The position numbers were made by a program, and so were the translations under genes. Under the pieces are notes generated by a model. It searched no databases. It worked only from the letters and a program-made list of their open reading frames with translations, and was not told where the DNA came from. Below, one piece after another: positions 5,904 to 52,818 of a stretch of DNA of 64,000 nucleotides (position 1 is the stretch's first letter; each line of letters begins with the position of its first letter). Location of the stretch: assembly GCF_037479095.1 (NCBI RefSeq), contig NZ_JBBGZW010000001.1, forward strand, positions 1,178,001 through 1,242,000. The letters run 5' to 3'. This DNA comes from Pantoea nemavictus. GTDB lineage: Bacteria; Pseudomonadota; Gammaproteobacteria; Enterobacterales; Enterobacteriaceae.

Positions 5904-6244
5904 AGTTATTCTCTAAAAGATAGGAGGTGAATAGTCACGAAGGGAATGACTCTGGAGTGTCATTGTAGGGAGGCGGGAAACGCGCGGTTGTTAAGGTTGC
6001 GTAAAATATATTTTCCAAAGGAAAATGGTAAACCTTCCGTGCGATAAATCGTTGGAATTTTTAGCGTTTTGTGGGTTTCACAGCGTACGACCATCATCCC
6101 ATTCGGACTCACCGGTTTTGTATTACGACAATCATCACATCCGGACTCACCGGTTTTGTAGGGGCGCCATTAATGGCGACCGGCAAACTGCTCGGCACGA
6201 CTTTCGTTCGCCCTCGGCGGAGGTCAGCCTGAAATTTTGCATAT
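5904..6244. other. Intergenic DNA between efflux operon and adhesin genes
   Basis: No coding region is supported here. It contains a 19-bp direct repeat (CGGACTCACCGGTTTTGTA at 6104-6122 and 6142-6160), followed by a GGGGCGCCATTAATGGCGAC C palindrome at 6161-6181 of the family also seen at 1600. The efflux operon promoter should lie just 5' of 5903 on the minus strand, but I see no convincing box. Confidence 0.6.
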
Positions 6245-12336: not shown

Positions 12337-12424
12337 AAAAAAAACCCACGCATCTGCGTGGGTTGGTGTAATAACAGGGGTGCTGCACGGCAGCGTTGTT
12401 TTCACACCCATCAATACCTCTGGG
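12337..12424 (-). ncRNA. omrA/omrB: OmrA/OmrB-type small regulatory RNA, copy distal to galR
   Basis: Read on the minus strand, it starts CCCAGAGGTATTGATGGGTG, the conserved 5' seed of OmrA and OmrB, and ends in the terminator hairpin ACCCACGCAGATGCGTGGGT followed by T8, with GTTATTACACCAA just before it. The length of 88 nt fits OmrA/B (82-88). The family is Hfq-dependent and OmpR-activated, and represses outer-membrane protein and curli genes (known for E. coli). The upstream CAATAT places an A and T at the key -10 positions. Whether it is the OmrA or OmrB ortholog cannot be settled by eye. Confidence 0.85.
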
Positions 12425-14488: not shown

Positions 14489-14565
14489 AAAAAAAAACCT
14501 GCGCATCTGCGCAGGTCGGTGTAATCAAGAAAACTTTTTGATGTTCACCCATCAATACCTCTGGG
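14489..14565 (-). ncRNA. omrA/omrB: OmrA/OmrB-type small regulatory RNA, copy proximal to galR
   Basis: On the minus strand it begins CCCAGAGGTATTGATGGGTG and ends ACCTGCGCAGATGCGCAGGT followed by T9, matching the Omr 5' seed and the E. coli OmrB terminator stem almost exactly. It is 77 nt long. TACAGT sits exactly at -12 to -7 with no good -35, as expected for an activator (OmpR) dependent promoter. In E. coli omrA and omrB are adjacent and lie next to galR. Here this copy is separated from the other by the PBP3-like gene and an ERIC, and from galR by the molybdoenzyme gene. Confidence 0.88.
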
Positions 14566-23089: not shown

Positions 23090-23115
23090 ATTTGCTTCGG
23101 GCTGATTGAGATTGT

Positions 23116-23278
23116 GCTGGCTGTCCCCCATCCCGGTCGGTGCTGGCTGTCCCCCTCCTCGGTCCTCCCCCATAAATGGGGGAGGAAGATGCTGCAATAT
23201 GATAGTTGGGGAGCTGCATGTGGCAGCGTCTCCTTCCCCCATTTATGGGGGAAGGCCGGGATGGGGGACAGCATGCAC
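23116..23278. repeat. Cloverleaf-like palindromic element, copy 3, with duplicated left end
   Basis: The core is 23142-23278: GCTGTCCCCCTCCTCGGTCC ... hairpin CCCCCATAAATGGGGG ... GCATGTGGCAGC ... hairpin CCCCCATTTATGGGGG ... GGCCGGGATGGGGGACAGC. An additional GCTGGCTGTCCCCCATCCCG end sits just to the left. It separates the converging 3' ends of the lipoprotein gene and the last gene of the DUF1989 operon. Confidence 0.87.
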
Positions 23279-23280
23279 AG

Positions 23281-23952
23281 TCAAGCGGGAACCCACGCGC
23301 CCTGCAGCTGCACCTGCGGGAAGCCATCGGTCAAAATGCGCAGTTCAGCATCGCGCGGCGTGTTGTCGCCCTGCCCCTGAATGCTGACGATATCCTGCGG
23401 GCAGGCGGAGAACGCCACCAAACAATCCATCTCGGCGCGCAGCACAATATAGTCGCCCGGCTTAGTCACCACCGGCAGCGTCTTCAGAGTGATGCCGTCC
23501 GGCTGCACCTGAATATTCATAAAAATATTAAACGATGCCAGATTGCCGTGCGGCAGCGTCACGCCCAGCTCGCTCATGCCTTCAAACAGGTTGTCATGGC
23601 AGTTGCGATGCGGTTCAGTGCACCCCAGCAACTCATAACGTCGCGCATCGCAGGCGGCCATAAAGGTGTCGTGCACGCCCGGCGAGGTATCCGCCACCAG
23701 CGTCAGAATCGGGTGGCGCTGGCTGGTGATAAAGCTGTCGCCCACTTTCGGATTGAGACGCTGATTCCACACCCGCGTCGCCTCCATACACATATATTCA
23801 CTCACATCCTCAGCGTTATACGCCCAGCAATCCACCACCTGGGTGCCGTGCAGGTTAATCACCTGTACCGCTTCACCCTTCTTCAGTCGCACCGCTTTAC
23901 CAAAGCGCGCCGGGATAGTTATCACTTCACGATGCTGAAATTCCGCTGACAT
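23281..23952 (-). CDS. DUF1989 (urea carboxylase-associated type) protein, third of operon
   Basis: The protein has 223 residues and is the last gene of the operon, 13 bp after the second permease. It opens with a beta-rich segment (ARFGKAVRLKKGEAVQVINL) and has the DUF1989 core with conserved polar/metal-type residues in PGVHDTFMAACDARR, EPHRNCHDNLFEGM and FSACPQDIVSIQ. Related DUF1989 pairs (UAAP/CgdAB) deiminate carboxyguanidine to allophanate in guanidine users (established for those proteins). This one belongs to the same superfamily, but its substrate is unknown. Confidence 0.88.
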   Translation of the reverse strand: MSAEFQHREVITIPARFGKAVRLKKGEAVQVINLHGTQVVDCWAYNAEDVSEYMCMEATRVWNQRLNPKVGDSFITSQRHPILTLVADTSPGVHDTFMAACDARRYELLGCTEPHRNCHDNLFEGMSELGVTLPHGNLASFNIFMNIQVQPDGITLKTLPVVTKPGDYIVLRAEMDCLVAFSACPQDIVSIQGQGDNTPRDAELRILTDGFPQVQLQGAWVPA

Positions 23953-23965
23953 GTTGTTCTCCAGA

Positions 23966-24631
23966 TTAGTGCTGCATGGCGCGACGATAGCGCGTCATGC
24001 GAGATTCAAGGCCGCGCGCCAGCCAGTCGATCGCGCTGTTGAGCAGCCAGTAACAGAGCGCCACGGTGAGATAGATCTCCAGCGGCGCGTAGGTATCCGA
24101 AATCGCCTGTTTGGCGGCGTACATAAACTCCTGCACCGAGACAATCGACAGCAGCGCCGAGTCTTTAATCAAACCGATCATCAGCCCCACCAGCGGCGAT
24201 AACATCTGCGGCAGGGTTTGCGGCAGCACCACATCGCGCAGCTGTTCGCTACGGCTTAAGCCGAGCACGCGGCACGCTTCCCACTGCCCTTTCGGCAGCG
24301 CATCAATGGCTGAGCGGATCACCTGCGCGATATAGGGCGCGTAGTAGAGCGTTAGCGCCAGCACGCCCACCACCGGCGACGACAGCGTGATGTCATATTC
24401 CGGCAGCACAAAGTAGAGCAGATAGATCACCACCAGCAGCGGCAGCGCGAGAGTTAAGCCGCTGTAAAGATTGAGCAAACGCAGCCAGAACGGCGAGGCG
24501 CGCATCAGCAGTACGGCCAGCAGCGCGCCCCACAGCAGTGAACAGAGCGCCGCCACCAGACAGAGCTGCAGGGTAGCGACCAGGCCGTCAGCCAGCGACG
24601 GCAACGAGGTGGTAATTGCCTGCCAATCCAT
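23966..24631 (-). CDS. Polar amino acid-type ABC transporter permease (second subunit)
   Basis: The protein has 221 residues. Hydrophobic helices flank the EAA-type cytoplasmic loop GQWEACRVLGLSRSEQLRDV, the site where an ATPase would dock. It is related to HisM/GlnP family permeases. The start overlaps the stop of the other permease by one base, so the two are translationally coupled and probably form a heterodimeric channel. No ATPase gene is adjacent or elsewhere in the operon. Confidence 0.93.
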   Translation of the reverse strand: MDWQAITTSLPSLADGLVATLQLCLVAALCSLLWGALLAVLLMRASPFWLRLLNLYSGLTLALPLLVVIYLLYFVLPEYDITLSSPVVGVLALTLYYAPYIAQVIRSAIDALPKGQWEACRVLGLSRSEQLRDVVLPQTLPQMLSPLVGLMIGLIKDSALLSIVSVQEFMYAAKQAISDTYAPLEIYLTVALCYWLLNSAIDWLARGLESRMTRYRRAMQH

Positions 24632-25281
24632 TACGCCATCCTCCGTTTCGCTTCCAGACGCCGCGCCGCCGCAATCAACGGCATGGCGATTAGCAGGTAA
24701 CCCGCCGCCACCAGCAGCAACACCTGAGTGGCTTCGTAGGTGCGGGCGATAACGATCTGTCCGGCATAGGTCAGTTCGGTCAGCGCCACCACTGAGGCCA
24801 GCGGCGTGGTTTTCAGCAGAATGGTGAATTCATTGACCAGCATCGGCAGGCTGGCGCGCATCACCTGGGGATTAATCACATACCACCAGCTGAGAAAACG
24901 GCTCAACCCCAGCGTGCGCGCGGCTTCAAGCTGGCCGCGCGTCACCAGGCTGCGATTAACGCGCAGGATTTCTGCCACGTACGCACCGCTGTTGAGGCCG
25001 ATGGCAATTACCGCCGCCAGCATCGGCTGCCCACCCAATCCCAGCCGTGGCAGCGTGAAAAACACCACAAACAGCTGCACGATCGCTGGCGTGCCGCGCA
25101 TCACACTGACGTAGCTGCGGCCGATGGCGCGCCAGATCCAGGCTCGGCGCAGCTGCAGGTAGCAGCCGAGCTGCCCCATTACCACGCTGACTAACGACGC
25201 CAGCACGGTGAGCATCAGCGTCATTATCAGTCCGCGTCCGAGTTCCGGCAGCGCGGCCACCACCTGTTGATCCAGCCCCAT
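24631..25281 (-). CDS. Polar amino acid-type ABC transporter permease (first subunit)
   Basis: The protein has 216 residues. It carries the EAA loop as RGQLEAARTLGLSRFLSW and the typical early segment VMRGTPAIVQLFVVFF of HisQ/GlnP-like permeases. It lies 3 bp after a DUF1989 gene and overlaps the second permease by one base. Together they should transport the ligand delivered by the binding protein encoded at the head of the operon. Confidence 0.93.
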   Translation of the reverse strand: MGLDQQVVAALPELGRGLIMTLMLTVLASLVSVVMGQLGCYLQLRRAWIWRAIGRSYVSVMRGTPAIVQLFVVFFTLPRLGLGGQPMLAAVIAIGLNSGAYVAEILRVNRSLVTRGQLEAARTLGLSRFLSWWYVINPQVMRASLPMLVNEFTILLKTTPLASVVALTELTYAGQIVIARTYEATQVLLLVAAGYLLIAMPLIAAARRLEAKRRMA

Positions 25282-25284
25282 GCG

Positions 25285-25932
25285 TTACTCCGCGTTAAAT
25301 TCGTGCAGGTTTTCCGCCACCGACAGCAGCAGCGGCGCGGGCTTATCGTTACCCTCAATGCCGGTGTTGCAGGCAGAGACGATGAATTCCGTATCCATCA
25401 CCACGCGACAGGTAATGCTGTCGCCGGCTTTGGTCAGATTGGTTTCCGGCAGAATATCGCCCTCGCGCGTGAGCTTGACGTGCATAAACAAGTTGATCGG
25501 ATCCGGCAGCTTCGGCACCACCCGCCCAAGACGCGCCAGCTCGCCGCGCACACCCTCAAGGCAACCTTCGCCCTGATAGCCGCGCTCGGCGAGAAACGCG
25601 GTGGTAGACGCCGGTAGCAGCAGGTCGTGACGCTTTACGCTGTCTTTGCCCAGCACCATCATCGGACGGCGACGGTTATTCACCAGACGCATACCGGAAC
25701 CCAGCAGATAACTGTTGCTGAACACCCGCGTATGGTGCACCGACAACCATACGGCGGAATCGGCAAGGCTAAAGCCAAACAGCGACGCAACGGCACCTTC
25801 GCCCAGCGCGGTGATGCGCAGCAGCTGACCGCGCAGCACGCGAATCGAACCCACGCTGCCCGCCGCAACCTGCACCGGTTCAGCCAGCGTGCGCACGGCG
25901 GTTTCTTCATAACTTTCACGCATTAACAGCAT
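25285..25932 (-). CDS. DUF1989-like protein, divergent member of the operon
   Basis: The protein has 215 residues from ATG 25932, which has CAGGAG upstream and overlaps the preceding DUF1989 gene by 17 bases. The fold pattern of DUF1989 is retained (VLRGQLLRITALGEGAVASL; PDPINLFMHVKLTREGDILP; FIVSACNTGIEGND), but the conserved HD....CD and HRNC.DN boxes of its two paralogs are replaced (KRHDLLLPASTTAF, QGEGCLEGVRGEL). It may be a regulatory or structural partner of a heteromeric enzyme, since known DUF1989 enzymes are two-subunit. That role is inferred. Confidence 0.82.
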   Translation of the reverse strand: MLLMRESYEETAVRTLAEPVQVAAGSVGSIRVLRGQLLRITALGEGAVASLFGFSLADSAVWLSVHHTRVFSNSYLLGSGMRLVNNRRRPMMVLGKDSVKRHDLLLPASTTAFLAERGYQGEGCLEGVRGELARLGRVVPKLPDPINLFMHVKLTREGDILPETNLTKAGDSITCRVVMDTEFIVSACNTGIEGNDKPAPLLLSVAENLHEFNAE

Positions 25933-26548
25933 GATTCATCTCCTGAGCGTGAAAATGGTCGCTGACCACGATGTCAATTGGCGTCACCTGCAGGCCGTTA
26001 CCGGGAATGATGTCCTGCGGGCAGGATGACACCGAGCAGATCAGGTCGCACAGCGCTTCAAAGGTGATGCTATCGCCCGCAACGCTGTTGGGATCGGTGA
26101 CTTCCATGCGGCCATCGGCGGTGACCGGGCCGTTCTGGAACAAGTTGAACGGTTCCGGCAGCGAGAAGTAGGTCACGCCAAATGCCTTCATCCCCTCCAG
26201 CAGGTTATCAACGCAGTTGCGATGCCCTTCTACGCCGAAATCGACGCTAAAACGGGTGCGATCGCACGCCGGTACGTTGGCATCGTGAATGCCGATGCTG
26301 TCGGCAAGAATGCGCAGCATCGGGCGGTTTTCACTCGACCACAGCGCATCGCCGGGTTTAAAGAACAGCGAACGCAGCTGCTGGCGCGTATGGACCGGCG
26401 ACAGCTTCTCGTTGAGGTCGTCGGCGTTTACCGCGACGAAATCGGCTGCCTGCTGCCCTTCGCTATCAATCACGGTAATGAACTGGCCTTTGCGCACGCG
26501 GAAGGTTTTGCCAAAGCCGGCGGGCACCGTCAGGTTGGACTGGCACAT
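25916..26548 (-). CDS. DUF1989 (urea carboxylase-associated type) protein
   Basis: The protein has 210 residues. Its ATG lies two bases after the binding-protein stop, with GCAGGAG as ribosome site inside the end of that gene. It has the full set of family boxes: VRKGQFITVIDSEGQQAADF, GIHDANVPACDRTRF, GHRNCVDNLLEGM and VSSCPQDIIPGNG. The residues His, Asp, Cys and Asn in these boxes are the likely catalytic or metal-binding ones. It most resembles the paralog at 23281. A hydrolytic or deiminating activity on the imported compound is a reasonable guess, not shown. Confidence 0.88.
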   Translation of the reverse strand: MCQSNLTVPAGFGKTFRVRKGQFITVIDSEGQQAADFVAVNADDLNEKLSPVHTRQQLRSLFFKPGDALWSSENRPMLRILADSIGIHDANVPACDRTRFSVDFGVEGHRNCVDNLLEGMKAFGVTYFSLPEPFNLFQNGPVTADGRMEVTDPNSVAGDSITFEALCDLICSVSSCPQDIIPGNGLQVTPIDIVVSDHFHAQEMNHAVNA

Positions 26549-26550
26549 AA

Positions 26551-27387
26551 TTACTCCTGCGGAATGAAGTCGCTGGCGGGTACGGTGAAGGTGGTGCCGA
26601 GATACTGCTGCTGCAGTTTGGTCAGCTCGCCATCTTTCTGCATCGCCAGGATATGCGCGCTAATCGCCTGGTTCAGGCTGCCATCTTCTTTACGCGTCGC
26701 CCAACCCATCCACTGCGACGGGCCGACTTCGCCCACCTGCGCCACTTTACCGGCGTATTTTTTCGCTACTGGCGCCAGTACCGAGATGTCGTCATAGACG
26801 AAATCGGCGCGTTTAGTCATCAGCGTGCTGACGGTTTGATCCAGCGAATCAACGTTAATGATGGTGATCGGTTTTTTGCCCTCTTTCTTCAGCTGCTCGT
26901 TAAAGCCTTTCAGCAACTGCTCCGGCACGCTGGCGGTTTTCACCGCGCCACGCAGGCCTGACAAGCTTTCCGGGCTGAGGGTTTTGCCACTGAACGCTTT
27001 GGCTGCGTCTTCACGCACCAGCACGCCGTTAACGGTTTTGCTGTACGGCACGGTGAACAGCACTTTCTTCGCGCGTTCAGCAGTGACGTTAAGGGAAGAA
27101 CCTTCGGCGTTGAACGAACCAGAGATCAGCCCCGGCAAAATGCCACTGAAGGCAGTTTTCTGAAACTCCAGTTTCACACCGAGATCTTTTGCAAAGGATT
27201 GCATGATCGCCACGCTGTAGCCGGTGATCTCACCTTTGTCATCGGTGTATTCATAGGGAGGAAAGGTTGGATCGATACCGACGGTGATTTTGCCGCTGCT
27301 TTTGATGTCGGCCAGCGTATCGGCTTGCGCCTGCGCCATGGTGCCAACGGAAAGAAGTGCGGCGATCAGCAGTGCTGTTTTTTTCAT
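26551..27387 (-). CDS. Periplasmic solute-binding protein of polar amino acid ABC transporter (SBP_bac_3)
   Basis: The protein has 278 residues with an N-terminal signal peptide (MKKTALLIAALLSVGTMAQA, cleavage near AQA-DT). The mature part is of the type 3 binding-protein family: SGKITVGIDPTFPPYEY, ITGYSVAIMQSFAKDLG, NVTAERAKKVLFTVPYSKT and KRADFVYDD. It captures a small amino acid-like or nitrogenous solute in the periplasm. It is the first gene of the operon and is preceded by a sigma-54 type promoter 43-58 bp before its start. The ligand cannot be told from sequence; the aromatic PPYEY and the Arg-containing AERAKK segment are ligand-site elements in this family. Confidence 0.95.
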   Translation of the reverse strand: MKKTALLIAALLSVGTMAQAQADTLADIKSSGKITVGIDPTFPPYEYTDDKGEITGYSVAIMQSFAKDLGVKLEFQKTAFSGILPGLISGSFNAEGSSLNVTAERAKKVLFTVPYSKTVNGVLVREDAAKAFSGKTLSPESLSGLRGAVKTASVPEQLLKGFNEQLKKEGKKPITIINVDSLDQTVSTLMTKRADFVYDDISVLAPVAKKYAGKVAQVGEVGPSQWMGWATRKEDGSLNQAISAHILAMQKDGELTKLQQQYLGTTFTVPASDFIPQE

Positions 27388-27429
27388 TATGGTGTTTCCC
27401 TGGTGTTGGTGAAATGTCTTTTTCTACTG

Positions 27430-27445
27430 AGCATGTTTTGTGCCA
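27430..27445 (-). promoter_or_regulatory. Sigma-54 (RpoN) type -24/-12 promoter of DUF1989 transporter operon
   Basis: On the minus strand this reads TGGCACAAAACATGCT. The GG and GC dinucleotides have the required spacing, and 10 of the 12 defined positions match the TGGCACG-N4-TTGCW consensus (positions 7 and 12 differ). Transcription would start near 27420, about 33 bases before the first gene. Confidence 0.72.
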
Positions 27446-27454
27446 GTTTTTTCA

Positions 27455-27468
27455 CCACTGCGCAGAGT
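27455..27468. promoter_or_regulatory. Palindromic candidate operator
   Basis: CACTGCGCAGAGTG has outer arms CACT/AGTG inverted and lies 10 bp upstream of the sigma-54 site. It could bind the RpiR-type regulator encoded upstream. Weak evidence. Confidence 0.35.
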
Positions 27469-27600
27469 GCATAACGCCAGGTCAATCTTTAGTGAATAAA
27501 ATCAACTGGAAACAATTGTTTCTTTGTTTTTATTTTTAATTTCTTAGGTTTCACTGACGAGCGGGACGGCGGCTATTGCTGGAGAGAGAGTTGGCAGGAT

Positions 27601-27639
27601 TGCACTGTTTTGGGGCGATTTCTGGCGCAAAATGCGCCA
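27601..27639. promoter_or_regulatory. NtrC-like enhancer sites upstream of the sigma-54 promoter
   Basis: The first site, TGCACTGTTTTGGGGCG at 27601-27617, resembles the NtrC box TGCACYAWWWTGGTGCA closely. A second palindrome TGGCGCAAAATGCGCCA (27623-27639) follows with centres about 22 bp (two helical turns) apart. They lie about 180 bp upstream of the predicted start site, with a strongly AT-rich stretch (27480-27550) between. The second palindrome could instead be a hairpin after the regulator gene. Confidence 0.55.
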
Positions 27640-27649
27640 GCACGGCGCA

Positions 27650-28501
27650 CTATTCAAGCTCGTCGAGGGATTGGTGCAGCGCTTCAATTTGCGCGAGATG
27701 ATCGTTGCTGGCTTTACCCATTTGTCGGGCCACCAATGAACAGAGCAGATTGCACACGCCAGAGAGCGCGGCTGTGCTGTCGAAGATCAGGCTGCTGTCG
27801 GTGTGGCAGCGGATCACCCATTGCGCGTGGCGCACCGGTTTGCCGGAGAGCACATCGGCGATATACAGCATCGGGACATTGCGATCGGCCAGCGCGTTCA
27901 TCGCCGCTTCCAGCGCCGGCATGCGTCGCCGCAGACCGACGCAAATCACCACATCTTCCGCCGTCAGCGCCGCCATATGCTCCGCCAGCGAATCGCCGGG
28001 ACGCGGCAGCAGACGGACATCGGAATGAATATGGATCAGGTCGCGGTAGATCAAATGGGCGATGGTTTGGCTATGGCGCCAGCCCATCACCACCACGCGC
28101 CGCGCCGCGCTGATGGCGGTAACCGCTTGCTGCAGCTGTTCGCTATCCAGCGTGCGATAGCTGTTGACCAGGTTGGCGATCTCTTTTTCCAGGTGCTGCT
28201 GCATGATGCTGGCCAGCGGTGATGCGCTGGGCGCCGGTTGCAGATAGAGCGGCGATCCGCTGCTCTGCATCTCACGCGCCTGGCGACGTGCGGCTTCATA
28301 GCTTTCATAGCCAAGATGGCGGAAGAAACGCGTGGTGGTGGCTTTCGAGACGCCGGCGCTGTGCGCCAGTTCGGTGGCGGTGTTCATGGCTAACTGGCCA
28401 GGTGCGGCAAGAAGCACATCGGCTAAGCGCTGTTCATGGCTGGAGAGTTGATCCCAGTGCTGACGAATCCGGCCCTCTAACGTTGCCGCTTTTGCACTCA
28501 T
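27650..28501 (-). CDS. RpiR/MurR family transcriptional regulator
   Basis: The protein has 283 residues from ATG 28501 with AGGGA upstream. The open frame continues into the repeat at 28583-28669, but that is not coding. An N-terminal HTH_6 domain (residues 1-80, ELAHSAGVSKATTTRFFRHLG) is followed by a SIS sugar-isomerase-like domain (about 115-260, RRVVVMGWRHSQTIAHLIYR; AEDVVICVGLRRR). Family members usually sense phosphosugars or other small ligands. It lies upstream of and on the same strand as the DUF1989 transporter operon, with 262 bp between, so it is the likely local regulator of that operon. Confidence 0.93.
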   Translation of the reverse strand: MSAKAATLEGRIRQHWDQLSSHEQRLADVLLAAPGQLAMNTATELAHSAGVSKATTTRFFRHLGYESYEAARRQAREMQSSGSPLYLQPAPSASPLASIMQQHLEKEIANLVNSYRTLDSEQLQQAVTAISAARRVVVMGWRHSQTIAHLIYRDLIHIHSDVRLLPRPGDSLAEHMAALTAEDVVICVGLRRRMPALEAAMNALADRNVPMLYIADVLSGKPVRHAQWVIRCHTDSSLIFDSTAALSGVCNLLCSLVARQMGKASNDHLAQIEALHQSLDELE

Positions 28502-28582
28502 GGTGATTCCCTGAAAATGAAAAAAACCATCCTGCACAGAGCGTGCCGGGTTGTCATCAGGAATTTTGTGTTGGGGGGAGTG

Positions 28583-28793
28583 TGCTGGCTGTCTCACTAC
28601 TCGGTCTGTGCTGGCTGTCTCACTACTCGGTCTGTGCTGGCTGTCCCCCATCCCGGCCTTCCCCCGCAAGCGGGGGAAGGAGACGCTGCCACATGCAACT
28701 CAGAACTAACATGTGGCAGCATCTTCCTCCCCCACTTGTGGGGGAGGACCGAGGAGGGGGACAGCAGGCACCGACCGGGATGGGGGACAGCGA
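28583..28793. repeat. Cloverleaf-like palindromic element, copy 4, with iterated ends
   Basis: The core is 28636-28777, in the same orientation as the copy at 6245: CCCATCCCGGCCTTCCCCCG ... CCACATG ... CATGTGGCAGC ... CTTGTGGGGGAGGACCGAGG ... GGGGGACAGC. At the left, the unit GTGCTGGCTGTCTCACTACT CGGTCT occurs twice in tandem. At the right, an extra GACCGGGATGGGGGACAGC end is added. It lies between the RpiR-type gene and lysS. Confidence 0.87.
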
Positions 28794-52632: not shown

Positions 52633-52818
52633 ATTTTCTCTGAGATGTTTGCAAGCGGGCCAGTCCCCTGAGCCGATATTTCATACCAACAGAATGTGAC
52701 GCTCCACAATTTGTGCGCATGCTCGGTCCGTCCGAGAAGCCTAATAGTTGTGACGGCATGTTCACCTTGAACCAAGGGTTCAAGGGTTACAGCCTGCGGC
52801 GGCATCTCGGAGATCTCC
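52633..52818 (+). ncRNA. ssrS: 6S RNA
   Basis: About 186 nt beginning ATTTTCTCTGAGATGTTTGC and ending GGCGGCATCTCGGAGATCTC C. The ends pair, and the internal GCAAGCGGGCCAGTCCCCTG and TGAACCAAGGGTTCAAGGGT blocks match E. coli 6S RNA closely. It binds sigma-70 RNA polymerase and dampens transcription in stationary phase. Its position between zapA and fau is conserved. The exact ends are estimated from the E. coli RNA. Confidence 0.97.

Follow-up and report, generated by a model that had tools for sequence, protein, structure and literature searches.

In Pantoea nemavictus (Enterobacteriaceae), an operon was found that combines three genes of the DUF1989 family with genes for the solute-binding protein and the two permeases of an ATP-binding cassette (ABC) importer, next to a gene for an RpiR-family regulator. 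It lies in a stretch of 64,000 nucleotides (assembly GCF_037479095.1, contig NZ_JBBGZW010000001.1, positions 1,178,001 to 1,242,000), here called the window, whose own numbering is used below unless a locus is named. All genes are on the minus strand between 23281 and 28504, in the order RpiR followed by SBP-D3-D2-P2-P1-D1, in which SBP is the solute-binding protein, P1 and P2 are the permeases and D1, D2 and D3 the DUF1989 proteins (Table 1). D3 and D2 overlap by 17 nt and P2 and P1 by 1 nt, and the remaining gaps measure 2, 3 and 13 nt, so that coordinates, overlaps, gaps and Pfam matches agree with the tight operon described in a first-pass annotation made from the sequence alone. With 105-170 bits against a Pfam cut-off of 27 (PF09347), D1, D2 and D3 are members of the family, and they are its only matches in the genome (5.19 Mb, 2 contigs). 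The operon of the window has no ATPase gene, so that the importer is incomplete there (binding protein and permeases only), and among its open reading frames and Pfam matches there is no GcvT domain or one-carbon gene.

Table 1. Genes and predicted regulatory sites of the operon, in window positions
Feature	Position	Strand	Basis
RpiR-family regulator, HTH_6 and SIS domains, 284 aa	27650..28504	-	Pfam
NtrC-like site 1, 10/12 to consensus	27633..27649	-	consensus match
NtrC-like site 2, 9/12, 32 nt from site 1	27601..27617	-	consensus match
Perfect palindrome GAAACAATTGTTTC, predicted RpiR operator	27509..27522		0 in 100 shuffles
Sigma54-type promoter TGGCAC-AAAAC-ATGC, 9/10	27431..27445	-	consensus match
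SBP, family-3 solute-binding protein, polar amino acid type	26551..27387	-	Pfam SBP_bac_3
D3, DUF1989, intact Cys95/Cys112/Cys176, His109, Asp36, Asp179	25916..26548	-	Pfam, alignment
D2, DUF1989, degraded metal site, fold retained	25285..25932	-	Pfam, alignment, model
P2, ABC permease, amino-acid type	24631..25281	-	Pfam BPD_transp_1
P1, ABC permease, amino-acid type	23966..24631	-	Pfam BPD_transp_1
D1, DUF1989, intact Cys101/Cys118/Cys184, His115, Asp41, Asp187	23281..23952	-	Pfam, alignment

A scan with D2, in which one genome per species was kept, yielded 44 loci from Pantoea, Erwinia, Kosakonia, Mangrovibacter, Rahnella, Rouxiella, Winslowiella, another enterobacterium, Vibrio, Pseudomonas and Burkholderiales; two of the records carry the name Enterobacter, and Paraburkholderia xenovorans contributes two loci. 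The order D3-D2-P2-P1-D1 is retained and SBP is present in all 44 (single genes being read as two pieces in L014, L015 and L028), and the RpiR gene adjoins SBP in 43, the exception (L036) being cut by a contig end. As all 44 loci keep the gene order, this arrangement goes beyond chance, and the loss of the unit in other genomes, which the first-pass annotation had named as grounds for abandoning its reading, is not what was found. Variation concerns the RpiR gene, which is divergent in the Burkholderiales loci, and an ATPase gene between P1 and D1, which is present in 13/13 Burkholderiales loci and in none of the 31 others. A plasmid of the alphaproteobacterium Palleronia carries the order SBP-D3-D2-P2-P1-ATPase-D1-RpiR; a BisC/TorA-type S/N-oxide reductase gene lies upstream of it (L083 3489-5795).

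The distribution of the operon is patchy. Matches to D2 at 1e-20 occur in 22 of 398 genomes of a phylum sample and in 10 of 198 genomes of a family sample, and ortholog-level D2 in 2/398 and 3/198 respectively, the genome of the window being counted in both. At 1e-35 no D2 was found among 385 genomes in the class of G345, a set without a positive control, and the Palleronia plasmid nonetheless has the operon. No description of the operon was found in the accessible parts of the open full-text literature on DUF1989, carboxyguanidine deiminase, urea carboxylase-associated proteins (UAAP) and allantoicase, a body of text that leaves most subscription journals outside its coverage; the gene cluster is apparently undescribed.

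Predicted promoter and regulation

The NtrC site consensus is TGCACC-N5-GGTGCA. In the window, the predicted sites comprise a -24/-12 element with paired enhancers upstream of it, the layout of a sigma54/NtrC operon as judged against consensus sequences. We compared 45 upstream regions, namely those of the window, of 43 loci (L036 starts too late and was left out) and of Palleronia. A sigma54-type element scoring at least 8/10 is present in 44 of them, at -48 to -70, and scores at least 9/10 in 27, and shuffling of the upstream region of the window reached a score of 8 in 86 of 2000 and of 9 in 8 of 2000 cases. NtrC-like sites of at least 9/12 were found in 42/45 regions versus 5.9 expected from shuffles. 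The palindrome GAAAC-N4-GTTTC is likewise present in 42/45, and in the 1.06 Mb examined from other loci it has one occurrence outside operon pieces. The upstream region in Palleronia has neither the sigma54 element nor this palindrome.

The sigma54 element together with a paired enhancer precedes SBP in 34/44 loci and is missing in L016, L029, L031-L034, L036 (cut) and L043-L045. Under this criterion, which was set after the sites had been seen, the combination has a single occurrence in the window and none in 2,185,102 control strand-bases of other loci. Together, the predicted sigma54-type element, NtrC-like sites and RpiR-type palindrome strongly indicate nitrogen control of the operon, which backs the nitrogen role assigned by the first-pass annotation.

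A second palindrome, CTGGCGCATTTTGCGCCAG, lies at 27640-27622, just past the RpiR stop codon and overlapping NtrC-like site 1, and similar ones occur in many enteric loci; it may serve as an enhancer, a terminator or both. Scans for terminators and sigma70 promoters gave results at chance level, and in the window no Rfam riboswitch, guanidine riboswitches included, scored as high as its gathering threshold.

Metal residues and relation to known DUF1989 systems

Residues were compared in 23 rows per protein (21 loci, the window and Palleronia), covering alpha-, beta- and gammaproteobacteria. D1 and D3 each retain, in 23/23 rows, three Cys, the HRNC His and two Asp, one in CPQD and one in a GxQxxD stretch, and the boxes HD..xACD and HRNC.DN are present in both; on these residues, D1 and D3 are probably zinc enzymes. 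In D2, the first Cys is replaced by Ser and the His is gone in all 23 rows, and the Asp is lost at the Asp36 position in 23/23 and at the Asp179 position in 22/23 (Ser and Gly, respectively, in the window). D2 retains the HD pair in 23/23, the second Cys in 21/23 and the third in 22/23 rows, with Cys124 and Cys188 present in the window protein. The first-pass statement that one of the three proteins had lost its boxes is thus correct for the first Cys, the His and the Asp, but not for the HD pair or, in most copies, for the second and third Cys. A D2-specific stretch, HHTRVFSNSY...NRRR..MVLGKD, is invariant across nine aligned copies. The AlphaFold model of D2 (pLDDT 89.6) matches the DUF1989 structure 3SIY at TM 0.81, so that D2 shares the fold of the family. 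Altogether, D2 has the look of a degraded copy that has been conserved, and it may pair with D3 into one assembly. The closest solved sequence relative of D1 (E 3e-46), and also of D3 and D2, is the DUF1989 protein TM1040_0329, of unknown function (PDB 3ORU/3SIY), from which D2 differs in that part of the metal site is gone. The degraded site of D2 would also suit non-catalytic proteins, that is accessory or regulatory subunits of the importer, but the metal residues of D1 and D3, kept in every row across three proteobacterial classes, make such a role for the DUF1989 proteins hardly credible.

DUF1989 is a large family for which, to our knowledge, only two reactions have been characterised, those of the carboxyguanidine deiminase CgdAB and of the trimethylamine N-oxide (TMAO) demethylase Tdm. 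CgdAB resembles the operon in having an adjacent DUF1989 pair of which one member has all three zinc Cys and the partner does not (D3 has all three in 23/23 rows, D2 the first in 0/23), and in having an ABC importer alongside and a role in nitrogen metabolism. CgdAB is named as a case with an inactive cognate in the available part of one paper (PMC11271267). In 13 rows each, UAAP2 has all three Cys intact and UAAP1 does not: the first and second Cys are gone in 13/13 UAAP1 rows and the third in 10/13, whereas the second is present in most D2 rows. In a tree of 120 rows, which is unrooted and has several long branches, UAAP1 and UAAP2 group together (26 rows, 100/99), with D1, D2 and D3 on the opposite side, each as a single clade with support of 100/98 or better. 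If the CgdAB clade is taken as everything that descends from the ancestor CgdA and CgdB have in common, as defined in the accessible text of PMC11410670, D1-D3 fall outside it in this unrooted tree. The proteins of the window also stay below the cut-offs of TIGR03424/TIGR03425 (51.1-126.8 of 284.7 bits; 46.6-76.4 of 205.95 bits), D3 reaching 127 bits against the UAAP2 cut-off of 285 and D2 47 bits against the UAAP1 cut-off of 206. Because of the separate clade and the different set of lost residues, the degradation of D2 is best read, from these alignments, as independent of that of UAAP1. Further differences from CgdAB are the third DUF1989 gene, the RpiR gene, the sigma54-type sites, and a carboxylase that is encoded outside the cluster and is of the urea type.

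This last point bears on whether D3-D2 could be the carboxyguanidine deiminase of the guanidine pathway, acting in trans with the carboxylase and allophanate hydrolase of the genome. Its pair of an intact and a degraded protein resembles UAAP2/UAAP1, and the genome has no other DUF1989 gene but does have both partner genes. The first-pass annotation had noted that urea carboxylase and allophanate hydrolase are absent from the window; this is correct, but both score over their cut-offs elsewhere in the genome. The type of carboxylase can be read at K. lactis position 1330, where Asp marks guanidine and Asn urea carboxylases according to the parts of PMC11410670 and PMC12186494 that are available. 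The sole over-cut-off carboxylase of the genome has Asn (Asn706), so that the guanidine carboxylase expected as a partner was not found. As D1-D3 moreover lie outside the CgdA and CgdB clade and D3 and D2 below the UAAP cut-offs, as 16 operon genomes carry an adjacent high-scoring DUF1989 pair elsewhere, and as the window has no guanidine riboswitch at the Rfam gathering score, we regard this assignment as most improbable.

The comparison with Tdm, a fusion of DUF1989 and GcvT, is closer at the level of single residues. In the accessible text of PMC12560246, the Cys of Tdm bind zinc, iron is attributed to the His and to the Asp of CPQD, and a Cys-less DUF1989-like domain lies ahead of the intact one. 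D1 and D3 have the same set of three Cys, His and Asp, UAAP2 has neither this His nor this Asp in 13/13 rows, and TMAO demethylase is the top NCBIfam match of D1 (102.8 bits) and D3 (142.2 bits). D1 and D3 could hence be C-N lyases of the Tdm type rather than deiminases, with a methylated compound, an N-oxide or a hemiaminal like ureidoglycolate as substrate; cleavage of ureidoglycolate would free urea and so explain why enterics lack ureidoglycolate lyase. The shared His and Asp strengthen this alternative slightly, at the expense of the pathway proposed below. Nevertheless, the operon encodes separate small proteins in an importer context, with no GcvT or one-carbon gene, the matches fall far short of the NF053776 cut-off of 1100 bits, and related single DUF1989 genes adjoin ureohydrolases and carbamoylases, for which reasons we hold the lyase alternative to be rather unlikely.

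Those single DUF1989 genes belong to operons of the form SBP-P-P-ATPase-M20 carbamoylase-DUF1989-regulator-ureohydrolase, which we know of no study characterising. They have the same importer type as the operon and share with D1 a 40-row clade (98/97) holding 17 of the 25 single DUF1989 rows, and differ in having one DUF1989 gene, M20 and ureohydrolase enzymes, and no D3/D2 pair. Other DUF1989 neighbourhoods, picked from best hits and hence examples rather than rates, contain cytosine-permease, amidase and deacetylase genes (in one case the permease only), or a gntA-like heme N-hydroxylase gene directly adjoining a single DUF1989 gene on two plasmids (L144 6262-7555, L145 6190-7552; a third is listed, H7). 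In L142 (122-6128), a UAAP1-UAAP2 pair is preceded by an amino-acid-type ABC importer and followed by an amidase, and the annotation of that stretch shows no urea carboxylase. The common theme of these neighbourhoods is guanidino and ureido nitrogen.

Substrate, urea outlet and proposed pathway

In SBP, Asp39, Arg105 and Asp199/Asp200 are invariant in 8/8 sequences, and we take them to be the counterparts of the residues that contact the side chain, carboxylate and amine of the ligand in LAO/HisJ. The structural neighbours of the SBP model bind Lys/Arg/Orn, Gln, cystine or opines with tied scores and do not single out a ligand. Residues and model together favour a small ligand that is either zwitterionic or acidic and bears a terminal NH2 group. 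They would also suit an importer for a guanidino amino acid, such as a relative of arginine, whose side chain is cut by the DUF1989 proteins, with the allantoicase linkage described below being incidental; solved relatives of SBP bind Arg, Gln, Lys, opines and others. That two unrelated forms of allantoicase occupy this one position speaks against such an importer, and we consider it improbable.

An allantoicase gene follows D1 in 10/44 loci, nine from Burkholderiales and one from Pseudomonas NFR16, and all four of the encoded proteins tested exceed the equivalog cut-off (404-449 vs 277.9 bits). In the allantoicase tree, all nine Burkholderiales copies fall into a single clade (99/96), next to which stand six copies located elsewhere in three of those genomes (99/96); the Pseudomonas operon copy is placed with two further allantoicases from Pseudomonas (100/100). 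Allantoicase was thus apparently recruited to the operon twice, and that it probably arrived twice in one and the same position suggests a functional link between the enzyme and the operon.

The outlet for the nitrogen was sought in 25 operon genomes (24 relatives and that of the window). Allophanate hydrolase is over its cut-off in 25/25 versus 60/198 of the family sample. Taken as a clean link to urea this count was rejected, as the 29 copies over cut-off (28 stretches and L056) comprise 14 beside an Asn-type carboxylase, 8 beside an Asp-type one, 1 fragment and 6 without a carboxylase. Asn-type urea carboxylase adjoins allophanate hydrolase in 14/25 genomes, all 12 enterics included, and the Asp type in 8, one of which also has the Asn type. 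The urease alpha subunit is encoded in 12/25 genomes and in 0/12 enterics; either urease or Asn-type urea carboxylase is present in 25/25, and it is this count that we use; Fisher values were set aside, since they take no account of relatedness. A sigma54 element of 9-10/10 precedes allophanate hydrolase in 13/14 Asn-type operons. Additional DUF1989 genes occur in 17/25 genomes, 16 of which have the adjacent high-scoring pair mentioned above, and the other 8 have only the three of the operon. The urea carboxylase gene of one relative is in two pieces (L160 2784-6397), through a frameshift or an assembly error.

These observations are put together in the following proposal, to which we give close to even weight: the operon would encode a nitrogen-starvation-induced pathway for the uptake and breakdown of a small ureido- or guanidino-substituted acid, with urea as the outlet. 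At low nitrogen, NtrC and sigma54 would turn the operon on, and the RpiR protein would adjust expression through a substrate-linked ligand at the GAAAC-N4-GTTTC palindrome. SBP and the two permeases would take up the compound, using an ATPase encoded elsewhere in those genomes whose operon lacks one. The putative zinc enzymes D1 and D3, the latter assembled with the degraded D2, would then remove nitrogen from it in the cytosol, most likely by hydrolytic deimination of a guanidino to a ureido group or by a related C-N cleavage. In some Burkholderiales and one Pseudomonas, the linked allantoicase might release urea from the product; elsewhere this might fall to D1, to D3-D2 or to slow decay. 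The urea would be used through urea carboxylase and allophanate hydrolase or through urease. Its parts differ in strength: nitrogen-controlled uptake and breakdown is well supported, a ureido or guanidino acid as the substrate class moderately so, and the reactions of D1 and D3-D2 are weakly supported. The first-pass proposal, import and then deimination or hydrolysis of a small nitrogen compound, is borne out as to the importer parts and the nitrogen role; the enzymes may deiminate, hydrolyse or cleave the compound.

Several points weigh against this pathway. Allantoicase was not seen behind D1 in 34/44 loci (L043 ends at D1), and the genome of the window has no match, although the same search matches 5 of 14 relatives. 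Ureidoglycolate lyase is present in 11/25 operon genomes and was not found in any of the 12 enterics or in the genome of the window, so that a textbook ureide route is absent from the enterics. Co-occurrence with the urea route is partly phylogenetic, a genome of the same genus without D2 (G192) also has allophanate hydrolase, and some of four inspected among the six allophanate hydrolases without an adjoining carboxylase look biuret-related. To these are added the late setting of the paired-enhancer criterion, the Tdm-like top match and residues of D1 and D3, and the retention in SBP of residues typical of alpha-amino acid binders. With these points in mind, we advance only tentatively, and at somewhat less than even probability, the fuller proposal of an undescribed nitrogen-limitation pathway in which two zinc-dependent DUF1989 enzymes, one of them joined in a heteromer to a degraded copy whose origin is independent of CgdA, degrade an imported ureido- or guanidino-acid to urea, replacing allantoicase and ureidoglycolate lyase where these are missing.

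Around the operon, composite palindromic repeats bracket the genes at 23110-23282 and 28578-28791 (88 nt at 92% and 70 nt at 90%, inverted). The window has more copies, at 6242 and 12193, and another adjoins the urea locus L056, which points to a dispersed intergenic repeat; it flanks only L004, L006 and L007 among 10 operon loci checked. Rfam matches elsewhere in the window are two small RNAs of the OmrA-B family (14490-14565 and 12337-12424 (-)) and 6S RNA (52634-52817 (+)).

The operon links three DUF1989 members to one importer, one regulator, a promoter of the nitrogen-control type and a likely urea outlet, and as such narrows the hunt for the substrate to a small ureido- or guanidino-acid. 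If the proposal is true, D3-D2 would be a second, independent pairing of an intact with a degraded protein, which would show that the recruitment of damaged copies as subunits is a recurrent event among DUF1989 enzymes. The proposal would then also identify a compound that serves Pantoea, Rahnella and Burkholderiales as a nitrogen source.

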